64,000 bases of DNA, from contig KE546980.1 in the NCBI GenBank assembly GCA_000442125.1, positions 1,178,001 to 1,242,000 on the forward strand, given 5' to 3'. The notes below the pieces were generated by a model, which did not search any database, was not told the origin of the DNA, and saw nothing but the letters and a program-made list of their open reading frames with translations. This stretch comes from Opeltia flavorubescens (Eukaryota > Ascomycota > Lecanoromycetes > Teloschistales > Teloschistaceae). Positions 7,564-46,500 of this stretch are shown here, in pieces. The first letter of the stretch is position 1. Each line of letters begins with the position of its first letter. Position numbers and translations under genes: made by a program.

Positions 7564-9834
7564 TCACAAGCTTACCCACTCGCATTCGCAGGCGCTCGTC
7601 GCTGAATTCCGTTCCCATATATTCCCTCTTTTCTCTTTGATCGAACTCGGTCGTGGCCTAACATCGTCATCATCTGGTTTATACTCGTTAAGAGATACAA
7701 TGTCCTCGTCAGGTAATGGTTGTGCAGTTCCGTCGTTCATAATCTGCATATGCACACAGTAAGGCTGTATGACATTGTTCGGATCACGTCTTTCTTCAAT
7801 TTTGACATCTCTCGGGTATTCCGCCATTTGCGAGGGATCCACTGCATATCGCCTATTGACCGGAGCCCCTGGTATTGTAGGATCAGACGGTATAGAGGTG
7901 GACGCTGCAGAAGGTGCAGCCTCGTAACCTTCCCAAGAGGCAGCTGCCGTGGTATATAAGTCCCCATAGGGGCTTGACGTGGTGTAAGCTTCGGAGGACG
8001 TTGATTCGGTCTGATCGGATGAGTTCTGAGTAACATAGATGAAGCCTTCTAATACGGTATTATTCCAATAGCAGAACCATGGTTTGGCAGTAATCGGCGC
8101 TATTCCCTGTGGTGAACGATATTCGCCAAAATTGAACCGTCTACTCTTGGGACGACGCTGAGGGAATTTGATCCATCGCCTTTTATACCCTGCATCACGA
8201 TTCCAATCCTGTTCCGAGATGACAACAACCTTGGTGTATTGCTGCTGAAAGAACCAAGCCGGACCCTTTTCCATTCCATCTTTATCACCCATAAGCATCA
8301 AAGATGTGGCCTGGCTCGTTTGTGGTGGTTGTGGACCGAAGTGAATCTGATTGGCCATTTGAGGGTAGCGAGGAGAGACAGAGATTAAGCTCGGGTCGGA
8401 GATGTCCAGCCTTACATCTACTGAGCTTGAGCAGTCCCATGCATTATCATGAAGGGATAGACATGATGTATTGTGAATCGTTGGATTTCGAAGAGGGACG
8501 TAAAAAGTACCAGTTGGCAGAGAAGGTAGGTTTGTAGGAGTAGACGTTAATGGAGTTGCATCGACCAAAGACGTCAACGTGACGACCACAGTAGTAGAGT
8601 CACTATCGAAAGTCAGCAATCCCTCTGGAAGCAGTGATAAAGAAGCTTACGCTGCAGGTGGGGGACCATGCTGATTTTGCGGCTGCATAGATACTGCCTG
8701 TTCCCTTCCGCGTGCCCGTCCTACCACGGCTCCAATGACACCAGCAATAATAGCAACCAATATTACAACCAGGACTGCGACTACCCAAAGAGGTATTGCA
8801 CCGAAACATACTCGTTTCTTGCCTTTCTCTTTGACAAGTTCTTTGAAGTTCCCTCCCTCATCTTCACGATGGCGTGTCTCGTTTTGTGCCATGGCGGTAG
8901 AGTCGGTGGAGTCGTAAATTCGATCGTTGTGAGGAGATGACTCTTGAGATTGAAATGGATCCGCGAGTGTCTCTTCAGACGTTTCCTGTTGCTCCCGCTC
9001 CACACTGAGCACACTTGCGGGACCAGGGCGGCCTCCTTTAGGGGGAATACCGTCAGGATACCGTGTATATGGCGGTAGTTGTTCAGTATAGCCATCAGGG
9101 CCAACAAGATCATCAGCATCTTCTGCATCGGGGCCCAAGGGTCGTCGGTAGTTTTGCAATCTTCCGGGGAAACCGCCAGACACAGGCGGGTGCAGGCTCT
9201 CCATCGGACCAACCCCATCCTCCGGTACGGTGTTTTGCAGATACATGCCATAAGGCTGAGTTGGCCCGTTAGGTCCCGTATATGATCTCTCTCTAGGCCT
9301 TGCGGTAGAAGTGGTGGCGATGCTGGGAGAACGGGTGACGGCAATGTCTTGGGGATACATGCCGTACGGATGACTGGGTCCTGTAGCGCCTTGGTATGGG
9401 CTTTGCGTCCGAGGTATCGTGAGATCTGACACTTGACTGAGGGATCGGTGGATGCTTGACCTTTCGGTTCCGTAAGAGAAGAATGAGGCTCTTACACTCT
9501 GAGGGTGAAACTGCCCAACACTATCGGAGCGTGATGAGATTGATGCATGTCGTTCATTATACCCGTTGTTTCTTGGATCCACACTCCTCCTCATCGAAGC
9601 AGCTGCATTATAAAAGCCACGCTGAGATTGGACGTCCACAGGTTGTTGAGCTTCTCCTGCAGCAGAAACGTGGGGATTGCTATTAGTCTCCGATGGTGGA
9701 GCATCGTCACTTATCGTCAAGTTTTGCAATGCGTATTCGTCGGAGAAGATATCAGGATTCGACCAGCGTATGGATGCTCCTTGAGAAGTCCGTGAACTCG
9801 ATGTTGACGGTCGGGTTGGTACCTGCTCAGCCAT
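7564..9834 (-). CDS. Single-pass membrane protein with DUF7820-type extracellular domain, 740 aa
   Basis: Unknown function, probably at the cell surface. Two exons, 9834-8651 and 8602-7564, joined with GTAAGC...TAG ends to give 740 residues. The first 340 or so residues are Ser/Pro/Gln-rich and likely cytosolic and disordered. Next come a basic stretch (KEKGKKRVCFG) and one membrane segment (LWVVAVLVVILVAIIAGVIG, about residues 350-372). The part after the intron has the DUF7820 look: TGTFYVPLRNP, SCLSLHDNAWDCS, PWFCYWNNTVLEGFIYV, then EYPRDVKIEERR and QPYCVHMQIMNDG. Paired cysteines fit an extracellular fold. The positive-inside rule places the N-terminus in the cytosol. The family name is recalled from sequence pattern, not searched. 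Confidence 0.82.
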
Positions 9835-10380: not shown

Positions 10381-11938
10381 TCATGCCTTGATCTCATACT
10401 CTCGTCGAAACATCTCGTCAATATTGGTCAGGTAGTACGTGCCGGGAACAATTGCATCGGCGTCACCGCCCGGGGTATAATTCTTCTGCAGGTGAGCCTT
10501 TTCTCTCAAGTTGCACATCTGTGGAAGGTCAGTCCGACACTATGATGGCCTAAAGAGAACTGGAATATACCTCATCGTAAATCTCGGGCTTTACCACACG
10601 CCTAGCTTCCAGCCTCTTGTGTAGATCAACCTTTTCAGCCATCTCGCTGACATCCCCAACGACCCTCAAGCTGAAGAATGAGCTTGCTAAACCACTGCCA
10701 TAGCTGAAGATGCCAACTCGCTTACCAGCAATGTCCTCTCCCTTGACATTGCTTAGCAAGCTCACCAAACCACCATAGACGCTTGCCGTGTACATGTTTC
10801 CACACATCGTCGCGGCCATGATACCGGGCTGAACACGGGCGGTGTATTTCTTCTTCGTGAGCGCAAGGAAAGTTTTCTCAATGGTCTTGTCTGTGATCGT
10901 GGTGGTGTAATCAAGTTGGCGGATTTCAGCTGGCACAGATTCGAAGATAGGGTTTTCTGGGTTTTCAAGGTAATCGTTGTAAAGCATGCGAGCATAGTTC
11001 TTGGTGACTAACTTGCAATTGGGTGCGTGGAAGACGATGTGATCGAATCGATCCAGTGGGGTATATGAGGAATCTTGCTGCTTATGGACACCATTGGTTA
11101 GACCGTTTGTCTGCATCCTTGCTTCACGTTCCCCGTAGCTCTTGTAGCATTTATCAACAGCTTCTGTATAGCATCTGACAGAAAAAGCACCGTCCAGCAC
11201 AGGATACTCAGATGTGAAATCTGGTTTGTAAAAGTCGTAGGCGTGTTTCATGAAAGTACCTCGTTTGCCGGGCTCGAACGCTAGGGGGGCGTTGGGACCG
11301 ATAAGCATAGCGACACACCCAGCGCCACCAGTAGGGCGAGCGTTGCCCTTTTTGTACAGAGCGATATCACCGGTAACGACAATGGCATCTCTGCCATCCC
11401 AAGCTGATGATTCGACCCAGTTTATCGCATTGAAGACGGCGTTGGTTCCTCCATAGCAAGCATTGACGGTGTCGACTCCCTCTATATTTGTGTTGCCGCA
11501 TGGTTCGAAAAGCTGCATCAGTACTGATTTGACTGATTTTGACTTATCAAGGAGAGTCTCTGTGCCAACCTCTAGCCGACCAATTGAGTTTGGGTCAATG
11601 GAGTATTTTCTGAGCAGGGAGGAAACGGTTGTAAGAGCAAGCGAATAGATATCTAGCAGCATGTAAGTTTTGGCAATTGACCCGGGACATCCGACACATA
11701 CCTTCCCGATCGTCGCAGAAGGCCATTTTTGTCTGGCCCAAACCAATGGTGTATTTGCCCTGGCTAACGCCATCGAATTTCTCAAGCTCGGCCTGATCTA
11801 CGCACTGTAATCCAAAGTCAGACAACGATCACTGTATGAGTCTTCGAGGAGGACCGGATCAATTGATCAATTGCTCACTTGGTTCGGGAAATAAATCTCA
11901 ATGGCTTTGATACCAACGTCTTGCGGTCGTGAGGCCAT
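10381..11938 (-). CDS. ERG13: Hydroxymethylglutaryl-CoA synthase, 460 aa
   Basis: Condenses acetyl-CoA with acetoacetyl-CoA to HMG-CoA, the step before HMG-CoA reductase in the mevalonate/ergosterol pathway. Four exons: 11938-11879, 11804-11702, 11652-10571 and 10518-10381. All introns have GT...AG ends and the joined frame is 460 residues, the usual fungal size. It starts [20 protein letters not shown]. The family's catalytic residues are visible: Glu in [17 protein letters not shown], Cys in [10 protein letters not shown] and His in [11 protein letters not shown]. The segment [15 protein letters not shown] near the C-terminus is also characteristic. The last exon encodes the conserved tail with [18 protein letters not shown]. 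It is transcribed divergently from the HAD hydrolase. Confidence 0.96.
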
Positions 11939-33110: not shown

Positions 33111-34215
33111 ATGTCAGGAATTGAGACACTTGGTATTCTTGCAAGTGCTACTCAACTTGCCGCCTACAGCATCAAAATCGTTCTCCATCTTGACGAGACA
33201 TACACAGCGGTCCAGAAAACATCTACCCGAATCACAAGATATTTCAACCAGGTCAGAGAATTGATTGAGATAACTACCTTGATCGAACAACAAACATCCC
33301 TCTGGTCGTCAAAAGTTCACCGCCAGCTTCAAGCTACACTTTCAGAGGCTCAATCTCTCTACGATTTACTTCGGGAGCAAGCAGACAATTACAAGCAAAG
33401 TTCAATTTGGAAGTATTGGTCCATATTGAGAGGCATTGCGGAAACGGAGATTTTGAGCAGTCTCGACAGCTTGGAAAGAGAGAAGAGCACGCTGCGAATT
33501 TGCATTGATACTGTTCACATCGATCTTCTTCTCGATATAAAGGGAAGTATTGATTCATTTTCGTGTACGAGAATGTGGGGGAAGCCTCCCTTTCCTCAAA
33601 ATACTGTGAGCGTTGCGGTAAGTACAGGTCTGTTGATATACGATCTGTGACCTCATGCTTCCTCTTCAACCATGAATAAAGCTGAGGAGCATCTAGGACA
33701 AAGGCTCTGGCAATACCATCAATTCAAAACCTCCAGCCACATTGAAGGGAAAAGGAAAGGAGATTCCGAACTCGCAGAGTACGTAGCCCCACTGTTGCTC
33801 CAAATCGACACTGATTTGTCAATCTAAAGCCGCAATGGTCCATGTCCAAGCAAGCAGCTCCACCGCTGCGGGCGGCTCTCAAGAAGGTCATCGTTATAAG
33901 GGTAAAGTTTCAGTCGACAAAGAGTCCTCCCAGCACGCAGGCGATCAGGGAGCCAACCCCAAAACGGTCAAATTTACAACAAGCAGCTCCACCGCTGCGG
34001 GCGGCTCTCAAGAAGGTCATCGTTACATGGGTAAAGTGACAGTGGACAAAAAGTCCTCCCAGCACGCAGGCGATCAGGGAGCCGACCCCAACTCCAAACG
34101 CCACACGTATGAGAAGGACGCGTCTTGTCAAAATAAAAGTGTTCAAGTTCTTGGGAACTTGAACGATGCACAAGCGATAGCTGGGTGGGCTGAGCATATC
34201 AAAGGACGAAAATAA
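33111..34215 (+). CDS. HET-s-like effector: helical SesA/HeLo-like N-domain plus two C-terminal amyloid motifs
   Basis: Probable prion-forming signalling or cell-death effector. Exon 1 (33111-33617) encodes about 169 residues of helical domain starting MSGIETLGILASATQLAAYS, with VRELIEITTLIEQQTSLW, VHRQLQATLSEAQSLYDLL and LDSLEREKSTLRICIDTV. This is the pattern of the N-terminal domains on fungal NACHT/STAND proteins (SesA-like; a HeLo-like fold is the alternative). A short middle exon lies near 33687-33778. The last exon (from about 33830-33858 to 34215) carries two motif copies, GHRYKGKVSVDKESSQHAGD (33886-33945) and GHRYMGKVTVDKKSSQHAGD (34015-34074), 43 residues apart. The second junction is not resolved. 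The plainest acceptor, before 33830, does not keep frame with the middle exon, while one at 33857 does. The next gene carries a matching single motif. Confidence 0.75.
33852..34109 (+). repeat. Two tandem 129-bp units encoding the amyloid motif
   Basis: Units 33852-33980 and 33981-34109 align without gaps. Over the first 108 or so bases I count seven differences, about half silent. The period is exactly 43 codons, so frame is kept. Beyond that the linker ends differ (TVKFTT against SKRHTY). Confidence 0.9.
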
Positions 34216-34640
34216 GATTGCCTACTTTTGAAACACGTAGGAGATATTGTCACGGTTCAAAGCAAGTTCTTGTTGTGGTCATTCGGGCGTCTCCGGGGTA
34301 ATGACAACAATTGAAAAAATATGGTTCGATTCTTTGCATGTCTTGCGAGAGTCTGAGGGTCATAAATGAGTACTTGATCACCGTTTATAGCGTTCAATGA
34401 TGACATAGAGTGCTTTGCTGCCTCTTCACGTAGCAGATCATTCGCTCACGATACCGTGTCTACTGAGGCTACGTGATGTAGAGTAGCTGCCGAGGATCAT
34501 GTAATTTTTGTCAGGTGATAACACCTGCAACGTATTCGGATAATTTGAGCCGCAGGTCATATTCAGATACATATCTGCCATAACCGCCCTGATCTGTGAA
34601 GACGTCCTTGATCATCAACTAGCTCCAGGCATCAGTGACC
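34216..34640. promoter_or_regulatory. Intergenic between effector and ankyrin receptor-like gene
   Basis: It is 425 bases between two same-strand genes and must hold the effector 3' UTR and the receptor promoter. No specific element is recognised. Confidence 0.4.
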
Positions 34641-36000
34641 ATGGCTGACGGCCCATCGTCATTTAAAGGCCATAGATTCGGTCCCATAACTTCCAAAAGT
34701 GGCTCGTCATTGCACGCGGGAGACATCAATGGGGACGTCAAGACACGTTACTGTAACCACCCTTGCATTTCCATCTCAAGAGTTCTCGAGGCTAATCCAG
34801 TCACTCAACGTAGACTACGAGGAACAGCGAGGCAATCGCTTCTTCAAAACCGAGCCAGGGAAACGCCAGCAGTATCTTCATGAGTTCGCTCGGACAGGAG
34901 AAATGACTAGGCTGCAAGAGCTTCTAAAACTCAACGTGGATTTGGAAACCGGTGATGGGTCTGGTAATGGAGCGCTTCACATAGCTCTCAAGAATGGTCA
35001 GATCGATTGCGCGAAGCTCTTGATTGAGAACGCTGCAAATCCCAACGCTCTCGACGGAGCGAGCCGTACGCCATTGATGATAGTCCTAGACGAGCTAGGA
35101 CAACTCAACCTCCCAACCCAGTTACAAAGATACAACGACCTACGCGATTTCGCTAGACTGCTGCTCAGCAATGGCGCCAGAGAAAGCATCAATGAAGCAG
35201 ATAGTCGAGGGATGACCGCCCTTCTGATTGTCTCTCAAAGCAGACTCTGTGAGATTGCATGCATCCTGCTTGACTGCGGAGCCAAAGCCGATAATTCCAA
35301 CAAGGAGGGGTGCACAGCGTTGATGTACGCTGCAAGTCGTGGAGACATAGAACTCGCCCGCCGCCTCCTTTCTACGAACCGTGTTGATCCGAGACAACAA
35401 GTTAAAGGAGAGAAAACCCCAGACTCCCAACAATGGACGGCTTTGATGAAAGCTGCCGACTATGGCAGCGTTGAAATGATGGAATTACTAATGTCAATAG
35501 GGGCGGACCCAAGTGCGGTGAATAGAGATGGAGAGACAGCCCTGATGATCGCTGCTAAGAGTGGACGTCACGACGTTGTACACTGGCTCACTTCTCCTAC
35601 CAGAATCTCAAGTGCATCCAAGGGAGACAAAGAGGGGCGAACGGCTCTTATGTGGGCCGTCATTGGGGACCATTACTCGGTTATCCCGCGATTAGCGAAA
35701 ACCTCTCCTGAGAGCGTAGCACAAACAGATCACATGGGACGAACGGCGCTCATGTGGGCTGCTCAACGGGGTTTCCTACGAACAGCCAAATGGTTGGCGG
35801 AATCCTATCCACAAACTTTAGCAATAACAGATAATGAAGGACAGAAAGTCGACGAGATAGCGTTCAAGTATGGAAACAAAAAGGTTGGCGAAATGCTACA
35901 GGAGAAGATTAAGGAATCGAACGCGCCCTCTGTTCCCCTCAAAGAACATAAATCACACTTTGGATGGCTGCATGGCAGGAAAAAGAACAAAAGTGGATAG
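34641..36000 (+). CDS. Ankyrin-repeat protein with N-terminal amyloid motif (putative receptor of the pair), 437 aa
   Basis: Exon 1 (34641-34736) encodes only MADGPSSFK followed by the motif GHRFGPITSKSGSSLHAGD and INGD. An intron at 34737-34782 (46 bp; GTCAAG...GAG ends) joins to FSRLIQSLNVDYEEQ. A 34-bp alternative (34747-34780) also keeps frame but would be unusually short. From about residue 70 the protein is ankyrin repeats: NGALHIALKNGQIDCAKLLI, RTPLMIVLDELG, MTALLIVSQSRLCEIACILL, CTALMYAASRGDIELARRLL, WTALMKAADYGSVEMMELLM, ETALMIAAKSGRHDVVHWL, RTALMWAVIGDHYSVIPRLA, RTALMWAAQRGFLRTAKWLA. The C-terminus is basic (KEHKSHFGWLHGRKKNKSG). No NACHT or NB-ARC P-loop is present. By analogy with NLR receptors the single motif would template the effector. 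That role is inferred. Confidence 0.82.
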
Positions 36001-39285: not shown

Positions 39286-41935
39286 TCACGTGGATAGACA
39301 TGCCCCACTATAGCAGTTGGCCTTGGAACCTATGACATAAATGGTCAGCATCATCAAGTAAAATAGAATACAAGGCTTTCGTTGAAAGCACTCACAGTAA
39401 TCTGTCGTCGATCCACAGTACCCGTAATTACTGCAACATGTCCCAAAGCTTGTACCCGTACATGTTTTGTTCCCTGCGAAATTAGGGCCGCAGGATCCAT
39501 CTGTGCTGGGACCGCCAGGGTTGGTATTGCAAGCCCCGCTGACACAATTCCCGGGATCGCAATGAGCTGGTGTGTTCCCACCTGTATGACCAGTGTCAGC
39601 ATCTACTTTCTCACTTTGCTGCGCCCTGTGAACTTACAGTAGCCAGAAGTTGAGCAGCATTTGCCCCATGTCGAGTCACCACACAACCAGCCATGGTTTG
39701 CTGGTCTTTGAAAACGTGACAAATCAGCTTCGGCGTCATCATAGTCACAATCATTCTTCACTCACCCGCAGGTACCGTCTTGAGTGATACCTTGTTGAGG
39801 ACCCGTGCATGCTAGATGGTGCGTCAATGGCAGCCATGGTAGTTGAAGCCTTGTTTGCTTACCTCCAGAATAGCAGTTCCCGGAACCGCAATACGCTGTC
39901 GTACTCCCACCTGCATATACGTTCAGCATTGACAGTGGTGTAGGCATATCGATTCAGCTTACAGTAGCCACTGTAGGAACAGCAGTCGCCAAACCCTGTC
40001 CCGTTACAGATCGCTTGATTGCTGCTGGGCCCACAACTGCCGTCTGTGCTCTTCGGAGGTTGAGTGACTTCAGGCAATCAGTAAAGCCATGAGCGATAGC
40101 CTTCCTAATTACTTACCACGAGCAACGCAGTACGAGTAACCTAGCCAGAGGTTGGTACAGTCTGTGTTGATTTGTGTGTTGAAGGTGCGCATATCCCCAA
40201 ACGTGATCCCGCTAAGTTGTCTTGTCAGATATCTCTTGCGTAGTATTCAATTCAACATTACACAAGACTTACTATCTCAAAGCAACCGAGTTGCATGTGT
40301 CACCACTTGCTACGTCGTGGTATCGACCACAGTCCGCAATGGTACCAGTGCTTGTCGGCTGAGCATGGTTCGCTAAGTCTCTGTTAGCTTCCACCTGCAG
40401 CTGGACCATATGACAAGCCTCGCACCAGTACTATAGTAGGATGAAGCCGCTGTTGGGGCGTACACCGGAGGTGGTGGGGTGTAAACTCCACCAGGAGGCC
40501 TGGAGAAATTGAGATATTAGCTTTGACGCGTTCACATGCAAACGACTGCTCCGCTCACCCTTTACAGATATACTGATCCCCCCGGACAGCGTCACATTTC
40601 CCAACGATCCTCCAATTCCACGTCGAGAACTGTGTTGTCGTTACGTTGTTGCTTGTTGTGGATATTGACTTCCGAAGTGACTCGCTAGAGATCATCAGTT
40701 TAGGCGCCATAGTATGCCTCACAATGCTCACCAGGTCTCTCCCCAGCCTATCTTCATTGTGTCACACGACAAAGGAGCACATATCGGGCTAGATATCTGA
40801 CATTGCCAGTCTTTTGTCAAGATAATCAAATCACCTGTAGTAACGCCATACTGCAGAGATAGTGTATGGCACGACTGAGTTTTTGCTGGAACGGGAATAA
40901 TTTGTCCAGCGCATGTTGTCGATGGGGCAGCAGCGCTCGACGTGCCTGTGTCGGCAGCTGCGGTGGTTGTTGGCACCGTCATGGTTCCTAATACCAACGA
41001 AGTAGATGCAGTAGTCAACGCCATACTAGTAGTGCAATAACTCTGGAGATCACTATATTGACCAAGCAGGTAGGTCGTATAATCGGCACCGGCTGCGAGG
41101 AACGGAGAAGAAAGTCGAAGGTTCAATAGTTTGATGAAGCAGTCACTGCACACCTAGATTATCTAGATTAGCCTTGATACCGGTTCCTACATTCTCAAAT
41201 GGCAATACTTACTGTTGTCTTTGGGTAAAGATTTCTCAGCCGGATATCGTCAGGCTCAATTGCCGTCTGATCAAAACCGGGAGTGAAACAAATATCCGCA
41301 TCCCAAGTACTGTTCCCTGCAAAGTATTAGGAAGGAATTATCAATGAAATTAGAGCACCCACCTGTCTCGCAAAGATCTTTCGGGTACCTCCTCATGTCC
41401 ATGCCCTGCCATGCTTGGTTCTCCAGCCAGCACCATCCGCCCGCACTGTAGCATGATCAGCCTGGGACAAAGGCCGACATTGACAAAGAGTTTTACGAAG
41501 ACTTGAGACATGCAAGATCGTATCCTCTCTTGTACATGAGTGGAATGGTCTTGGCGAGAACTAAGTAGCCCTCGTTTCGAAAAGGTTGAGTGCCACAAGC
41601 GGTCTGGACATTGGTGATCCAGCTGCTGATGGCACTGGAACATGTCGAAGTACATGATGCTGTCAGATTGGACGTTGTCCATGGGTATGATTCTATATTG
41701 GCTACTCGGGGGAGAAAGGCATTGTCACAGCTCAGTGTCTGGTTCCTGTGAGAGCTCGTCAACAGCTGGTGATGTTGAACCCTTTTATTCCTCACATTGC
41801 TTGCATGCATGCCGTTGTGACGCCTCTCTCCGCAGCAAAAGAGGTCAAATTACGTCCGCCATAGAGAACGAAGGTCTGTAAAGAGGGGGTGCAGAAAAGA
41901 AGCAGTAAGGTAAGTAGTGCCGTAGGATGGAACAT
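39286..41935 (-). CDS. Secreted chitin-binding protein with three LysM and three ChtBD1 domains, 630 aa
   Basis: Secreted protein that should bind chitin oligomers, as LysM effectors and wall-protecting lectins do. Fifteen exons join in one frame: 41935-41796, 41754-41503, 41445-41363, 41316-41213, 41153-40732, 40684-40559, 40499-40426, 40372-40273, 40211-40117, 40067-39963, 39910-39863, 39811-39766, 39705-39638, 39581-39396 and 39329-39286. The signal peptide is MFHPTALLTLLLLFCTPSLQ. LysM pieces are SCHTLSLQYGVTTGDLIILT, CESLRKSISTT to GDQYICKGPPGG, and DVASGDTCNSVALRYGITFG to GYSYCV. ChtBD1 cores are CNGTGFGDCCSYSGYC, CGDSTWGKCCSTSGYC and CTGTSFGTCCSNYGYC. The start faces the chitinase gene across 1.6 kb. 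Some donors (GTCTTC at 41502) are weak, so individual small exons could differ. Confidence 0.87.
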
Positions 41936-43577
41936 TGTAAGACAAAGTCGGTTTAATGACTTGACAACTAACGAAGTAAGAAGGCAGTTAAAAAGATGTT
42001 TTCTACAAAGAGCGATTAACTAGCAGGTAGTTGACTGGTGAGGAAAAGAGAGTGTGAAGGGGGACTTGGAATCAAGAGAAGGTCGACGTGCACTACTAAT
42101 GTCCAGAATTCCTCCTGTCAATGGCAGCCGCCGTCCACGACTGACGACCATCATCTTACGATCAGAGAACGATGCGTAGCTAGCTCGGGAACTCCGAGGA
42201 TCTCTCATGTCCTGAGTGTGACCAGTCCCTGAATGGTGCAGCAATCGACTGTCACAAACACTCGAAGGATTTATCGAAAATTCGTGATGGGTGGAGAACC
42301 ATAGTAGAAGTAGCTTTGCTAGCTCGAGAGGAGGTACCTAGAGAATAAGCTATCTCCATTCATCGAAGATGGCGGTGATCATGCAAGTACGTGGGTGCTG
42401 TATGTTGAAAGTGACTTGATATACTTTGTTCTGATGGCGCTAGCCATCGTGCTTGTGTTTCCCTCTCGGTTGCACACTGTCGAAAGATGTGTGCACACAT
42501 CAATGCCGATAATTATCGTGATCTCAGCCACTTCGGACGGAGACCAAGAGTCTTCGTCCAAAGCAGCATTCGAGCTCTCGATTTCAGCAGGTCCACAGAG
42601 ATTCTAGTACTGACTAGGCATGCATTTAGTACGTCTTACCACATCTAGAGCTTGCTTCTTTCCATCATCCCCTGGTGATGCATAAGGTAGTCCGCTAGGA
42701 TCAATCTACGGCTTGCTGCTGCAGGTACCCGGCGTCCGGCATATGTCAGATGGATTCCACGAGCGGAGTTCCCCACGCAAAAATGCCGATTATCCCACCT
42801 GCGAGAATTAGAGTCGGCATCTCGGTTAATCCTTGATCCTATCACACGCACACTGCGGTACTCTTCTCACTATTGATTTACTGCTTTCGTTGACACTTAC
42901 TACTATCAAAATGGGCGAAAGAGTGATACTCGGTGCCTACTCTCCGATCATACGAACAAAGTCAATGGAGAAGTGCTAAATCATCGCCGGTGAAGGTGCA
43001 GGTGTTGTTGTTGAACTACCGAGGTTAAACCCTGAGCCTTGCTTTAGCGCGACCCGATTAGATTGATCTGCTCAGCTCTTGCACAACATCTATGCGCCTT
43101 CGCTTCGAATACCTCAGAGTCGAGGGCCTCGCCTCCAAGGACATACTCCATTTGTCCACGGTAGCCGGAAGGATTATCACGGCCGTCGAGCATGGACTCA
43201 TCACGCTTCGGGGCACTAGCTTCGTGCCATAACGCCCTTATGGCTTGTGCCTTGCGTCTCGTGCTCAAATATGGACTCGGTAGTATAATTCATCCTGTAT
43301 ATCTATCACATCGCAGTGCTAGCGTCGCTCACGAAGGAAGCGAAGTCGACATGAAGCACACCATTCGATCCATGGGCCACTGGCAGGCAGATCCCCTCGA
43401 ACTTTGTCCATGTCGTAGATTGTACTTCTCCTTTTCTCTTGGATCCGATAAGTATGTCTTTCTCCGTGCCACCATTTTCCTTCCTTCCACCCCCAGTCAT
43501 TCTCTTGGAAAACATTGTTGCGATTACTGTCCTTGACTACAAAATATATCTGCTATTTCTATTGATCAGTGCCCTCA
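41936..43577. promoter_or_regulatory. Shared divergent intergenic region, LysM/ChtBD1 gene and chitinase
   Basis: The 1,642 bases between the two divergent starts hold no supported gene. Co-regulation of the pair from this region is plausible. I did not find a binding site I would name. Confidence 0.5.
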
Positions 43578-46500
43578 ATGCAGGCTTTTCATTCCTTCAA
43601 GCCCTTGATATTGGCTTTTCTTTACTTGATTCTAATATCATGCACCACGCTCGCGGATGCTTCGACAGTACGAGAACATGGCGATGAAGTACATTCATCA
43701 TCTGGCCCTTTGGTTCATAGGGCGGCCAATAGAACCTTGTACAAACCTTTATTTCAGAAGTCGTCCAACTCGACACCTCGCTTCCTCAACTTGACTCGCA
43801 AGGAAGTCAATCCCCAGAGGATCGCTGCGGCAAAAGCTCATGACCATAGCCCCAGAAGTCTTGATCTCTTCAAGCGGCAATCGGGGCCATCGGGTACCGG
43901 TACATGTGCTCCTGGTAGTCCATGCTCCAACGGAGCCTGCTGCAGCAATAGTGGCTTTTGCGGCTACTCCCCCGATTTCTGTGGTACTGCCAATTGTATT
44001 TCCAACTGTGATGCCAAAGCACAATGTGGAAAATACGCGGCGGCAGGAAAGCAAAAATGTCCTCTCAACGTTTGCTGCAGTCAATATGGTGTGTCTACCG
44101 TCGTCTCTCTCCTTTTCTTCTTCTATTTTTCAGTCGCGAACTGATTTGTATAGGTTTCTGTGGCACTACAAAAGATTTTTGTGGAACTGGATGCGATACT
44201 ACGGGTGGGAGCTGTGGAAATGCGCCAAAGCCAAGTGGCTCTGGCGGTGATTTTGCGCGTAGTATCGGATACTATGAATCATGGTAGGTCACCTAAGTTG
44301 CCGGGGTATGTTCCTATACTAATGTAGATATTAAGGGCGAGTAAGCGACCCTGTGATAAAATGGTAAATCACTTCAATGAACCCTGAGACGACATAATGA
44401 CTGAACAATGGCAAAATCTAGAAACCTGAAGATCTTGATACGACTGGATTCACTCATATGAATTTTGCATTCGCCTTTTTCCACCCTACTACATTTCAAA
44501 TAACGCCCATGGATGCCAATGCGGGCAGCTTGCTCGAGAGTTTCACCAACTTGAAAGAGAAGAACCCCCGACTCCAGACCTGGATCTCGGTTGGAGGGTG
44601 GTCTTTCAATGACCCTGGCAATAATCCTGAGTACGTGAGTCCCCGTGGAGTGGATGTGGTAGACTAAAGATGTGATAGCACCCGAAGCGCATTCAGTGAC
44701 ATGGCAAGCTCCGCTACCAATCGTGCCAAATTCATCTCCTCGCTCATGTCATTCATGCGTAATCATGGCTTCGATGGCGCTGATATTGACTGGGAGTATC
44801 CAGCTGCAGATGATCGGGGAGGAAAAGACGCAGATACGGCTAACTACGTCTCGCTTGTCAAGGAGATGAAAGCGTCGTTTGGTCGCAAATACGGTCATAC
44901 ATTCAGGCCCAAGGTTTTACATCTGCTGACGTATTACAGGTTTGAGCGTTACACTCCCAGCCAGCGTAAGGAGTCCGCAAGCGATGGTGAATTCGTTACT
45001 GAAATATTTGGTAGTACTGGTATCTGCAGCATTTTGATGTCAAGAGCATGCAGAGTTATATTGACTGGTTCAATGTGATGACCTACGACATCCATGGTCT
45101 GTCCAAATGTCTGAAGCGCTGAGGAATGGTGATGACTGATGTTCGATATTCAGGTGTTTGGGACTCGTCGAATCGGTTTACTGGTCCTTACGTGAGGTAC
45201 ATTGTCTGTTGTGTGACATCGAAATGATCAGAACTGATTCATTATCTAAGACCGCACACCAACCTGACCGAGATCGACGACGGACTGTCACTTCTTTGGC
45301 GAGCGGGAGTTTCCTCATCCAAAGTAGTCATGGGTCTAGGCTTCTACGGTCGTGCTTTCAAACTGACTTCAGCTTCTTGCACCAAGCCGGGCTGTACATT
45401 CAGCTCCGGCGCTACAGCAGGAGCATGTACTGGCGCATCCGGAATTCTTTCCCTTGCAGAGATTGGTCGTACCATTGACAAATATAGCTTGACGCCATCT
45501 TATGATTCAAAAGCCGCGGTCAAATGGATTACGTTCAATTCGGATCAATGGGTCTCATATGACGATGATTTCACCTTCCAGCAGAAGATGGATTATGCCA
45601 GAGGCTTGGGCCTCTCTGGGACCATGGTCTGGGCCGTTGACCAGTCTTCTACCGGATCCACCAGTTCTGGAGGTGTATCTTCCAATGATGCCTACACCGG
45701 AGCAGCTTTCTATCAGAAGGCGACCGGGATATCGAAGGCAGAGATTACAGCATACCAGACGCAAGCAGATGCTCAGGACAGTTGCTACACTTCTTTCTGT
45801 GGTAAAGAGTGTGCACCAGGCTACACTCCGGAACCTTACACAACGAAGGGTATAGTCGGCGAGCTTGGATCTGGTAGCGCATGCAAGAATGGAGAGGTAC
45901 AGCAAATCTGCTGCAAAACTGGAACTCTGACGGGAGAATGCGCGTGGTATGGTTATCGTGGTCAAGGGCTGAGCTGTTACGGAGGCCAATGTCCTTTCGG
46001 CGACACCTTGGTGGCCATGAATACTAACCATTACTTCAAACAACCAGAAGTCAGTTATGTCGAAGACCGAACTTGCAATGTAGGTGTCAAGATTTTATGA
46101 ACAAAGTGAGTTCGTTGGCTTACATTATTTACAGGGCGGCTCTCAGATCTACTGCTGTCGTGGATTCCGAGCATCGATGCAGCTCGGCCGTGACGCTGAT
46201 CTTCTCCAGATCGAGGACACCGAGACTACTGATTACACGACGTTAGCTAAGAGGGACTTCAAGACTTGTGCAACGTCAGGCCTCATCACCGCTGGCGTCT
46301 TAGCTTTGGGTGCGATAGTGCTCCCCGTTATCGGCCCCTTAGCTCTCGCTGCTGGAGGAGCCACCACTTTGATAACGGTATGTTGTCGACCAATCGAGAT
46401 GGGAAGTCTACTAAACAGTATGTCTTAGGGCTTATGCTTTGCAACGGAGAACGAGGTAGCGCCAATGTCGCTAGTCGGATATTCTGGTCCCTTGACCCGA

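Follow-up and report, generated by a model that had tools for sequence, protein, structure and literature searches.

Adjacent genes for an ankyrin-repeat protein and a predicted helical-bundle protein share a short motif in Opeltia flavorubescens: a candidate receptor-effector pair

The nucleotide-binding domain of nucleotide-binding oligomerisation domain (NOD)-like receptors (NLRs) is thought to gate their oligomerisation. Fungal amyloid signalling receptors are NLRs in the literature as it is used here, that is, in the accessible parts of the papers cited throughout. In HET-S/NWD2 of Podospora anserina, whose HET-s-related amyloid motif (HRAM) is HRAM1, the HET-s prion-forming domain, the effector has a helical executioner domain followed by a disordered tail with two motif copies at the C-terminal end, and a neighbouring gene encodes a receptor with one N-terminal copy; an adjacent NLR gene with one N-terminal copy is recorded for 98 of 155 published HRAM proteins (PMC4518210). 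HELLF/FNT1 of P. anserina (HRAM5, HeLo-like) follows the same gene-pair logic, again with an NLR partner (PMC7889193), and HRAM2 and HRAM5 have been recorded in the lichen fungus Cladonia grayi (PMC4518210). Here we describe two neighbouring genes with this layout and an ankyrin-repeat protein in the receptor position, effector gene A (33111-34215) and receptor gene A (34641-36000), both on the + strand of a 64,000-nucleotide stretch of the Opeltia flavorubescens genome (the window; positions 1178001-1242000 of contig C16, KE546980.1, in a genome of 34.4 Mb and 23 contigs). On balance, we lean modestly towards reading them as a two-gene signalling module in which an ankyrin sensor and a helical-bundle executioner work in the manner of HET-S/NWD2.

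The C-terminal part of effector A carries two in-frame copies of a 20-residue motif, r1 (GHRYKGKVSVDKESSQHAGD; 33886-33945, +) and r2 (GHRYMGKVTVDKKSSQHAGD; 34015-34074, +), and the start of receptor A carries one diverged copy, also in frame, r0 (GHRFGPITSKSGSSLHAGD; 34668-34724, +). This arrangement of two copies at the effector end and one at the receptor start had been noticed in a preliminary description of the window made from its letters, and its coordinates and reading frames are confirmed here. Comparison of nine copies (r1, r2 and r0 of the window; r1, r2 and r0 of a second pair on contig C13; r1 and r2 of a Letrouitia effector; and r0 of a Pyrenodesmia gene model) revealed three invariant residues, G, H and a late G, in 9/9 copies, and the string HAGD in 6/9.

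The second pair was found with the effector domain, which, at E up to 1, matches just two loci of the genome, each adjoining a motif-bearing ankyrin gene. The count of two pairs rests on this search and not on queries with the first exons of receptors A and B, which each match only themselves; such short queries miss each other, so that further receptors with the motif are possible. Pair B is unlinked to pair A, has the same domain layout and lies head-to-head (-/+) at L013 6057-9794 (contig C13, about 251556-255293), with ~1 kb between the start codons. Effector B (L013 6057-7255, - strand) has the three-exon layout of effector A, and database protein P0128, which is effector B, matches three pieces of the locus exactly and spans the introns exactly. 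Receptor B (L013 8242-9794, + strand; exons 8242-8350 and 8422-9794; 493 amino acids) begins MTPHQEPQGHIYGVNASYGQSMLHAGD and equals database protein P0146 except for one masked residue, with the junction joined exactly at the intron. The motif of pair B is diverged in all three places, r1, r2 and r0.

We then asked how well the two sides of the pairs recognise each other. A profile of the six effector copies alone (the window pair, the C13 pair and Letrouitia) was run against 143 proteins, 119 of them other ankyrin proteins from the receptor search, and ranked receptor A first (13.3 bits), receptor B second (6.3 bits) and the Pyrenodesmia model third (1.6 bits), this third rank being weak by itself with the next protein at 1.2 bits. 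When the first 45 residues were shuffled, the real score was reached by 0/3000 shuffles for receptor A, 0/3000 for receptor B and 5/3000 for the Pyrenodesmia stretch. On a six-frame set of 1,796 open frames of at least 25 amino acids, from the window and the 9.9-kb C13 locus, the same profile placed the two receptor first exons directly after its four training copies, at 16.5 and 12.1 bits, with the next frame at 7.9. In the opposite direction, a profile of the three receptors detected the effector tails (real score reached by 0/3000 shuffles for A and for B, 9/3000 for Letrouitia), and in the Pyrenula effector homologue it matched the C-terminal segment discussed below, with no full copy (5/3000). 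Profiles built from parts of the data also found receptors: across the 1,796 frames, a profile from locus A alone had receptor A as its best match outside the training frame (7.9 bits; next 5.8), and a profile from B and Letrouitia had receptor B (13.6 bits), with the A effector copies (13.3 and 11.0) and then receptor A (8.9) next in rank. The motif is short and rich in serine and glycine, as a likeness due to chance or low complexity would have it; the shuffle and profile controls and the second locus contradict such an explanation, whose probability we regard as negligible. Because a second copy of the same gene pair lies elsewhere in the genome, chance sharing is, as judged from sequence, very unlikely.

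The gene models of both receptors and of effector B agree with database proteins. Effector A (324 amino acids) is modelled with three exons: firstly, an open frame (33111..33617) for the N-terminal helical domain (MSGIETLGILASATQLAAYSIKIVLHL...), a likely SesA/HeLo-like helical-bundle executioner; secondly, a short low-complexity linker (33697..33778); thirdly, the predicted disordered tail (33830..34215), which holds the two motif copies and, at its C-terminal end, a conserved segment. The database search returned no copy of effector A itself (best match 50% identity), and the two introns that the model needs (33618-33696 and 33779-33829) are placed because of their splice signals and the like three-exon layout of the paralogue. 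Receptor A (432 amino acids), which lies 425 bp away in the same orientation (+/+), needs one intron (34753-34813) between an exon with the single N-terminal motif (34641..34752) and one with a pre-ankyrin segment of ~50 amino acids followed by ankyrin repeats from about 34963 (34814..36000); this splice model is identical over 432 amino acids to database protein P0002 (longest contig, 1,647 bases), which is joined exactly at the predicted splice site. P0002, P0128 and P0146 all join exactly at introns, while P0123 and P0124, long-contig records of the same source, run by our reading into the first intron. From the exact joins we infer that the three proteins are transcript-derived; the longest contig for P0146, at 8,254 bases, is long for a transcript.

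Relatives of the pair point to other lichens. The effector has 24 homologues, five of which carry an organism name: Pyrenodesmia, Letrouitia and Blastenia (Lecanoromycetes, Teloschistales), Dirinaria (Lecanoromycetes, Caliciales) and Pyrenula (Eurotiomycetes). All five genera are lichen-forming. The placement in Leotiomycetes assumed by the preliminary description finds no support in these names, four from Lecanoromycetes and one from Eurotiomycetes. Letrouitia P0125 and the paralogous effector P0128 share 71% identity. By our reading, 19/24 homologues end in or near the first intron, so that their tails are not visible and they are uninformative on the motif. Two others of the 24, P0122 and P0143, continue into ankyrin repeats and were excluded from the effector alignment. 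In P0122 of Pyrenodesmia the effector domain runs into MTDNQPSFGGHEFKEVYSSGSSTAHAGD and ankyrin repeats, the start of this stretch resembling the receptor start MADGPSSFKGHRF; in P0143 of Dirinaria it runs directly into the pre-ankyrin segment and the motif is absent. Both are probably gene models merged across two same-strand neighbours, true fusions being possible; since they join both parts, merged or fused, effector and ankyrin parts stand side by side in both genera, and from these sequences gene adjacency seems to be conserved across two other lichen genera.

In their pre-ankyrin segment, the ankyrin parts of P0122 and P0143 are most like receptors A and B. When this segment was used as the query (B residues 29-90 or A residues 30-90), its counterparts in A, B, Pyrenodesmia and Dirinaria outranked every other protein available, by 15.0 against 13.0 bits for the next protein, P0017, with the A query; with a longer A query (30-130), P0017 ranked above Dirinaria. 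A search for proteins with the receptor region retained 1 protein from 26 candidates, our own receptor B, and found no separate receptors of other species, intron-unaware protein calls being liable to miss the short motif exon. Among the 120 proteins listed from a whole-receptor search (3,044 proteins at E up to 0.001) there were, beyond the exact match, only general ankyrin proteins at ≤34% identity. At the level of sequence, then, the genes, their shared motif, their pairing, the duplication of the pair in the genome and the adjacent gene models in two lichen genera are established, and the adjacent effector-receptor pair put forward in the preliminary description stands, with the C13 pair in the same layout and probably two other lichen genera beside it.

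The effector is predicted to be a helical bundle with a disordered tail. AlphaFold2 modelled the paralogue P0128 with helices over residues 3-156 (predicted local distance difference test, pLDDT, mostly 80-94), and the top structural matches of this bundle in VIA-align include MLKL, Rx-CC and NRG1 CC-R, a likeness to the MLKL/RIPK3 (RHIM) necroptosis system and to plant coiled-coil (CC)/RPW8 executioners that is not clearly above the matches to unrelated helical bundles. HeLo, SesA and HELLP structures are absent by name from the structure matches listed, which excludes nothing. Pfam scans of the effector accepted no family. The family most frequently touched was SesA (PF17107), below threshold in 5/23 scanned members (best E 0.011), the Pyrenula member scoring 13.8 bits against a Pfam gathering cut-off of 26.3; this sub-threshold contact is what the effector domain shares with SESA/HET-eN and SESB, the sigma-motif systems of Nectria haematococca, where, unlike here, the motif is ~40 amino acids long with submotif repeats and the partner is an NLR (PMC5485727). 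No sigma-family Pfam match was listed here. DUF3730 and similar weak Pfam matches on the effector were set aside as chance. Searches of the genome for SesA, PigL_N and HeLo gave matches elsewhere and listed none at either pair locus. One SesA-domain match, on contig C4 (1657778-1659112), stands beside an NB-ARC match on the same strand and is probably a canonical SesA-NB-ARC receptor.

In the receptor the locus departs from the described systems. An NWD2-type receptor had been proposed; receptor A is instead an ankyrin protein (Pfam Ank_2, 5e-75, with ankyrin families alone among its Pfam matches), and Pfam scans of receptors A and B gave ankyrin-type families only, with no NACHT or NB-ARC match. 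Six-frame searches of the genome, whose counts are lower bounds, yielded at least 22 NACHT matches, the nearest of those listed being 124 kb (pair A) and 153 kb (pair B) away, and at least 4 NB-ARC matches, none of those listed on the contig of either pair; Pfam scans of 20 other open frames of the window (19 of the 35 at ≥170 amino acids, plus one shorter) showed no NLR. Some NWD2 homologues have ankyrin arrays in place of WD repeats (PMC4344463), and the receptor might accordingly be a worn-down NLR, a motif-NACHT-ankyrin protein that has lost its nucleotide-binding domain and its signalling. Two intact paralogous pairs, database proteins joined at splice sites for both receptors and one effector, and a pre-ankyrin segment conserved in four receptors with no listed NACHT or NB-ARC remnant all speak against such decay, which we consider very improbable. 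Fungal gasdermin-protease clusters likewise consist of two adjacent genes, an executioner and a partner able to carry ANK, TPR or WD repeats, and differ in that the partner there has a putative protease domain (PMC10197012); none is listed on the receptor here.

Aligning the nine copies with the published HRAM pattern showed agreement at some positions only. The glycine of HRAM position 19 is present in 9/9 copies, and position 3, polar (N, Q or H) in HRAMs, is H in 9/9, the state of HRAM3 (PMC4518210). The hydrophobic positions 5, 8, 10, 16 and 18 are occupied as such at 3-4 of 5 per copy if A and T are counted as hydrophobic; position 5 is aromatic in 9/9, position 8 is V or I in 5/9 and position 10 is V or A in 3/9. 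The window r0 matches positions 3, 5, 8, 16, 18 and 19 without a gap, and both effector A copies require one inserted residue in the first arch. Position 16 recalls HRAM5, which has Q there (PMC4518210): Q stands in 5/6 effector copies, and the receptor copies have L, L and A. Charged residues are fewer in r0 than in r1 and r2 (3 vs 7 and 6 in pair A, 1 vs 3 and 3 in pair B), as in the published trend for receptor-side HRAMs (PMC4518210) and as in HET-S/NWD2. Unlike HET-S/NWD2, none of the 9 copies has the R or K that HRAMs prefer at position 15, the receptor has no NACHT match, and the loop between effector copies is 23 amino acids in A and 45 in B and Letrouitia, outside the 6-18 seen in 154/155 published cases (PMC4518210). 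The pair thus resembles an HRAM pair by its layout, whereas the kinship to HRAMs suggested in the preliminary description, with G19 and H3 in its favour and position 15, the loop and the NLR partner contrary to it, is not supported by these sequences.

Several observations weigh against an amyloid-type module of matched partners. Firstly, the copies are poor in strong hydrophobics, position 8 being polar or charged in 4/9 and position 10 S or T in 6/9. Secondly, no amyloid profile matches the motif, and no HET-s-type chain came up when PDB sequences were searched with the motif profile; nor was PF11558, the profile against which a check had been proposed, listed in the Pfam scans or in the genome search, the latter lacking any control match and so uninformative alone. 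Because only 38/155 published HRAM proteins match PF11558 (PMC4518210), its absence is not decisive. Thirdly, AlphaFold2 found no beta structure in the tails of P0128 and effector A, at low confidence and with shallow alignments; this was also the outcome of the structure prediction of motif copies that the preliminary description had put forward, the two-copy tail of effector A reaching a mean pLDDT of 44.7 from 2 sequences, too few for a fair test. Fourthly, the matching within pairs is not clear-cut: r0 of receptor B shares 10 identical residues with each A copy and 9 and 6 with its own effector, receptor B is missing from the first seven matches of the A-only profile, and the cognate receptors lead by small margins (7.9 vs 5.8 bits for A, 13.6 vs 13.3 for B) at two loci only. 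Fifthly, a full tail of its own is present in only 3/24 effector homologues (P0125, P0128 and P0141), and the copies in P0141 are far diverged.

A polar motif with G, H and the late G in 9/9 copies and HAGD in 6/9, no amyloid-family match and no predicted beta structure would also suit a non-amyloid short linear motif, homotypic or adaptor-binding, through which receptor and effector meet, by a folded interaction or by way of a third partner common to both, and activation follows from proximity and not from cross-beta templating. We think this rather unlikely, since the layout, in which neighbouring genes encode a sensor with one N-terminal copy and a bundle protein with two copies in its disordered tail, is that of fungal amyloid pairs (PMC4518210), and since the ungapped fit of the window r0 to six HRAM positions speaks against it as well. 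PDB chains were also searched by sequence, using the effector alignment, the motif alignment and the tails; there was no credible match, and the lack of a chain matching the tails is a difference from HELLF/FNT1. RAG2 matches of the motif alignment covered only the first part of the motif and were rejected, as was a weak match on contig C7 to the tail of the C13 effector, where the frames (L018) lack the motif by eye.

The tail of effector A also shows how motif copies might arise. The copies r1 and r2 are part of a tandem duplication of 129 bp (33834..34091, +; units 33834-33962 and 33963-34091; 88% identity over 129 bp by repeat search, 93% matches by Tandem Repeats Finder), and because of this recent duplication or homogenisation their likeness to each other is not independent evidence. 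The units differ at 15 bases, 3 synonymous and 12 nonsynonymous, with three residue changes within the motif from r1 to r2: K to M, S to T and E to K. The last puts opposite charges at motif position 13 in our numbering, which corresponds to the position of a salt bridge in HET-s (PMC4518210); this is a single case. Exonic duplication of the 129-bp unit is a likely route for both gain and homogenisation of motif copies. Beyond the duplication, the last part of the effector tails is a conserved S[LV]QV[IL]GN.N segment (YEKDASCQNKSVQVLGNLN; 34108..34164, + strand, in the window; residues 308-327 of P0128), in which the paralogue, Letrouitia and Pyrenula align. This segment may be a third motif copy of the GN type; its profile test is weak, the real score being reached by 62/3000 shuffles for A, 38/3000 for B, 990/3000 for Letrouitia and 171/3000 for Pyrenula, and we make no claim.

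In the HET-S/NWD2-like module that we favour, the receptor would be an intracellular sensor, one N-terminal signalling motif on an ankyrin-repeat array, and the effector an executioner, a membrane-targeting helical bundle of SesA/HeLo/MLKL type on a disordered tail with two motif copies. Ligand binding would cluster the ankyrin sensor; the clustered r0 motifs would order into a stack that recruits and templates the effector copies r1 and r2; once ordered, the tail would release or oligomerise the helical bundle; and the bundle would damage a membrane, killing or arresting the compartment in defence against non-self or a parasite. We infer that the shared motif is the contact between receptor and effector; the contact would be amyloid-like templating, the ankyrin array the sensor, and the bundle what kills the cell. 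Clustering-driven activation of a membrane-active bundle by the ankyrin sensor is the likely core of this scheme, and it is probably amyloid-like. The earlier proposal of an amyloid signalosome controlling cell death is thus retained for the pair and its motif layout, to which the bundle with its MLKL and CC matches is added, and becomes a suggestion for amyloid and cell death.

The tight linkage of both genes at two loci, and one copy facing two, would also fit a receptor that acts as inhibitor or guard, its motif capping the effector tail so that the bundle stays silent until the receptor is lost or modified, in the manner of a poison and its antidote. Yet the fungal precedent with the same motif arrangement is an activator, NWD2 acting on HET-S (PMC4344463), and a tail predicted to be disordered fits a resting state that is silent with no inhibitor present, so that we hold capping to be improbable.

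More tentatively, and with somewhat more doubt than confidence, we suggest that activation by the ankyrin sensor could represent a new class of signalosome without a NOD in lichen-forming fungi, in which ankyrin-only sensors with a self-templating motif outside HRAM1-5, PP and sigma directly seed MLKL-like executioners, two paralogous pairs running in parallel in one genome. In the open literature as far as the accessible parts of it extend (PMC4518210, PMC5485727, PMC9815663, PMC12881547, PMC12261475, PMC4344463, PMC10197012, PMC7889193, PMC12258605), with subscription papers, preprints and supplements outside this coverage, we found neither an ankyrin-only receptor that bears an amyloid-type motif nor this motif described. 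If such a class exists, prion-type immune signalling would have no need for a nucleotide-driven receptor wheel; a motif on an ankyrin-only sensor would be its minimal version, making it testable whether ligand-driven clustering alone nucleates such a fold. An ankyrin-sensor pair would also place amyloid-type signalling in lichen-forming fungi, and the presence in one genome of two paralogous pairs whose motifs have diverged would offer a natural test of whether, and how, the channels stay insulated.

Elsewhere in the window, chitin-binding and GH18 chitinase-like open frames lie 3-9 kb downstream of pair A (39289-39633, 43566-44141 and 45228-46097), and an open frame at 10553-11797 encodes HMG-CoA synthase, an ordinary housekeeping gene.

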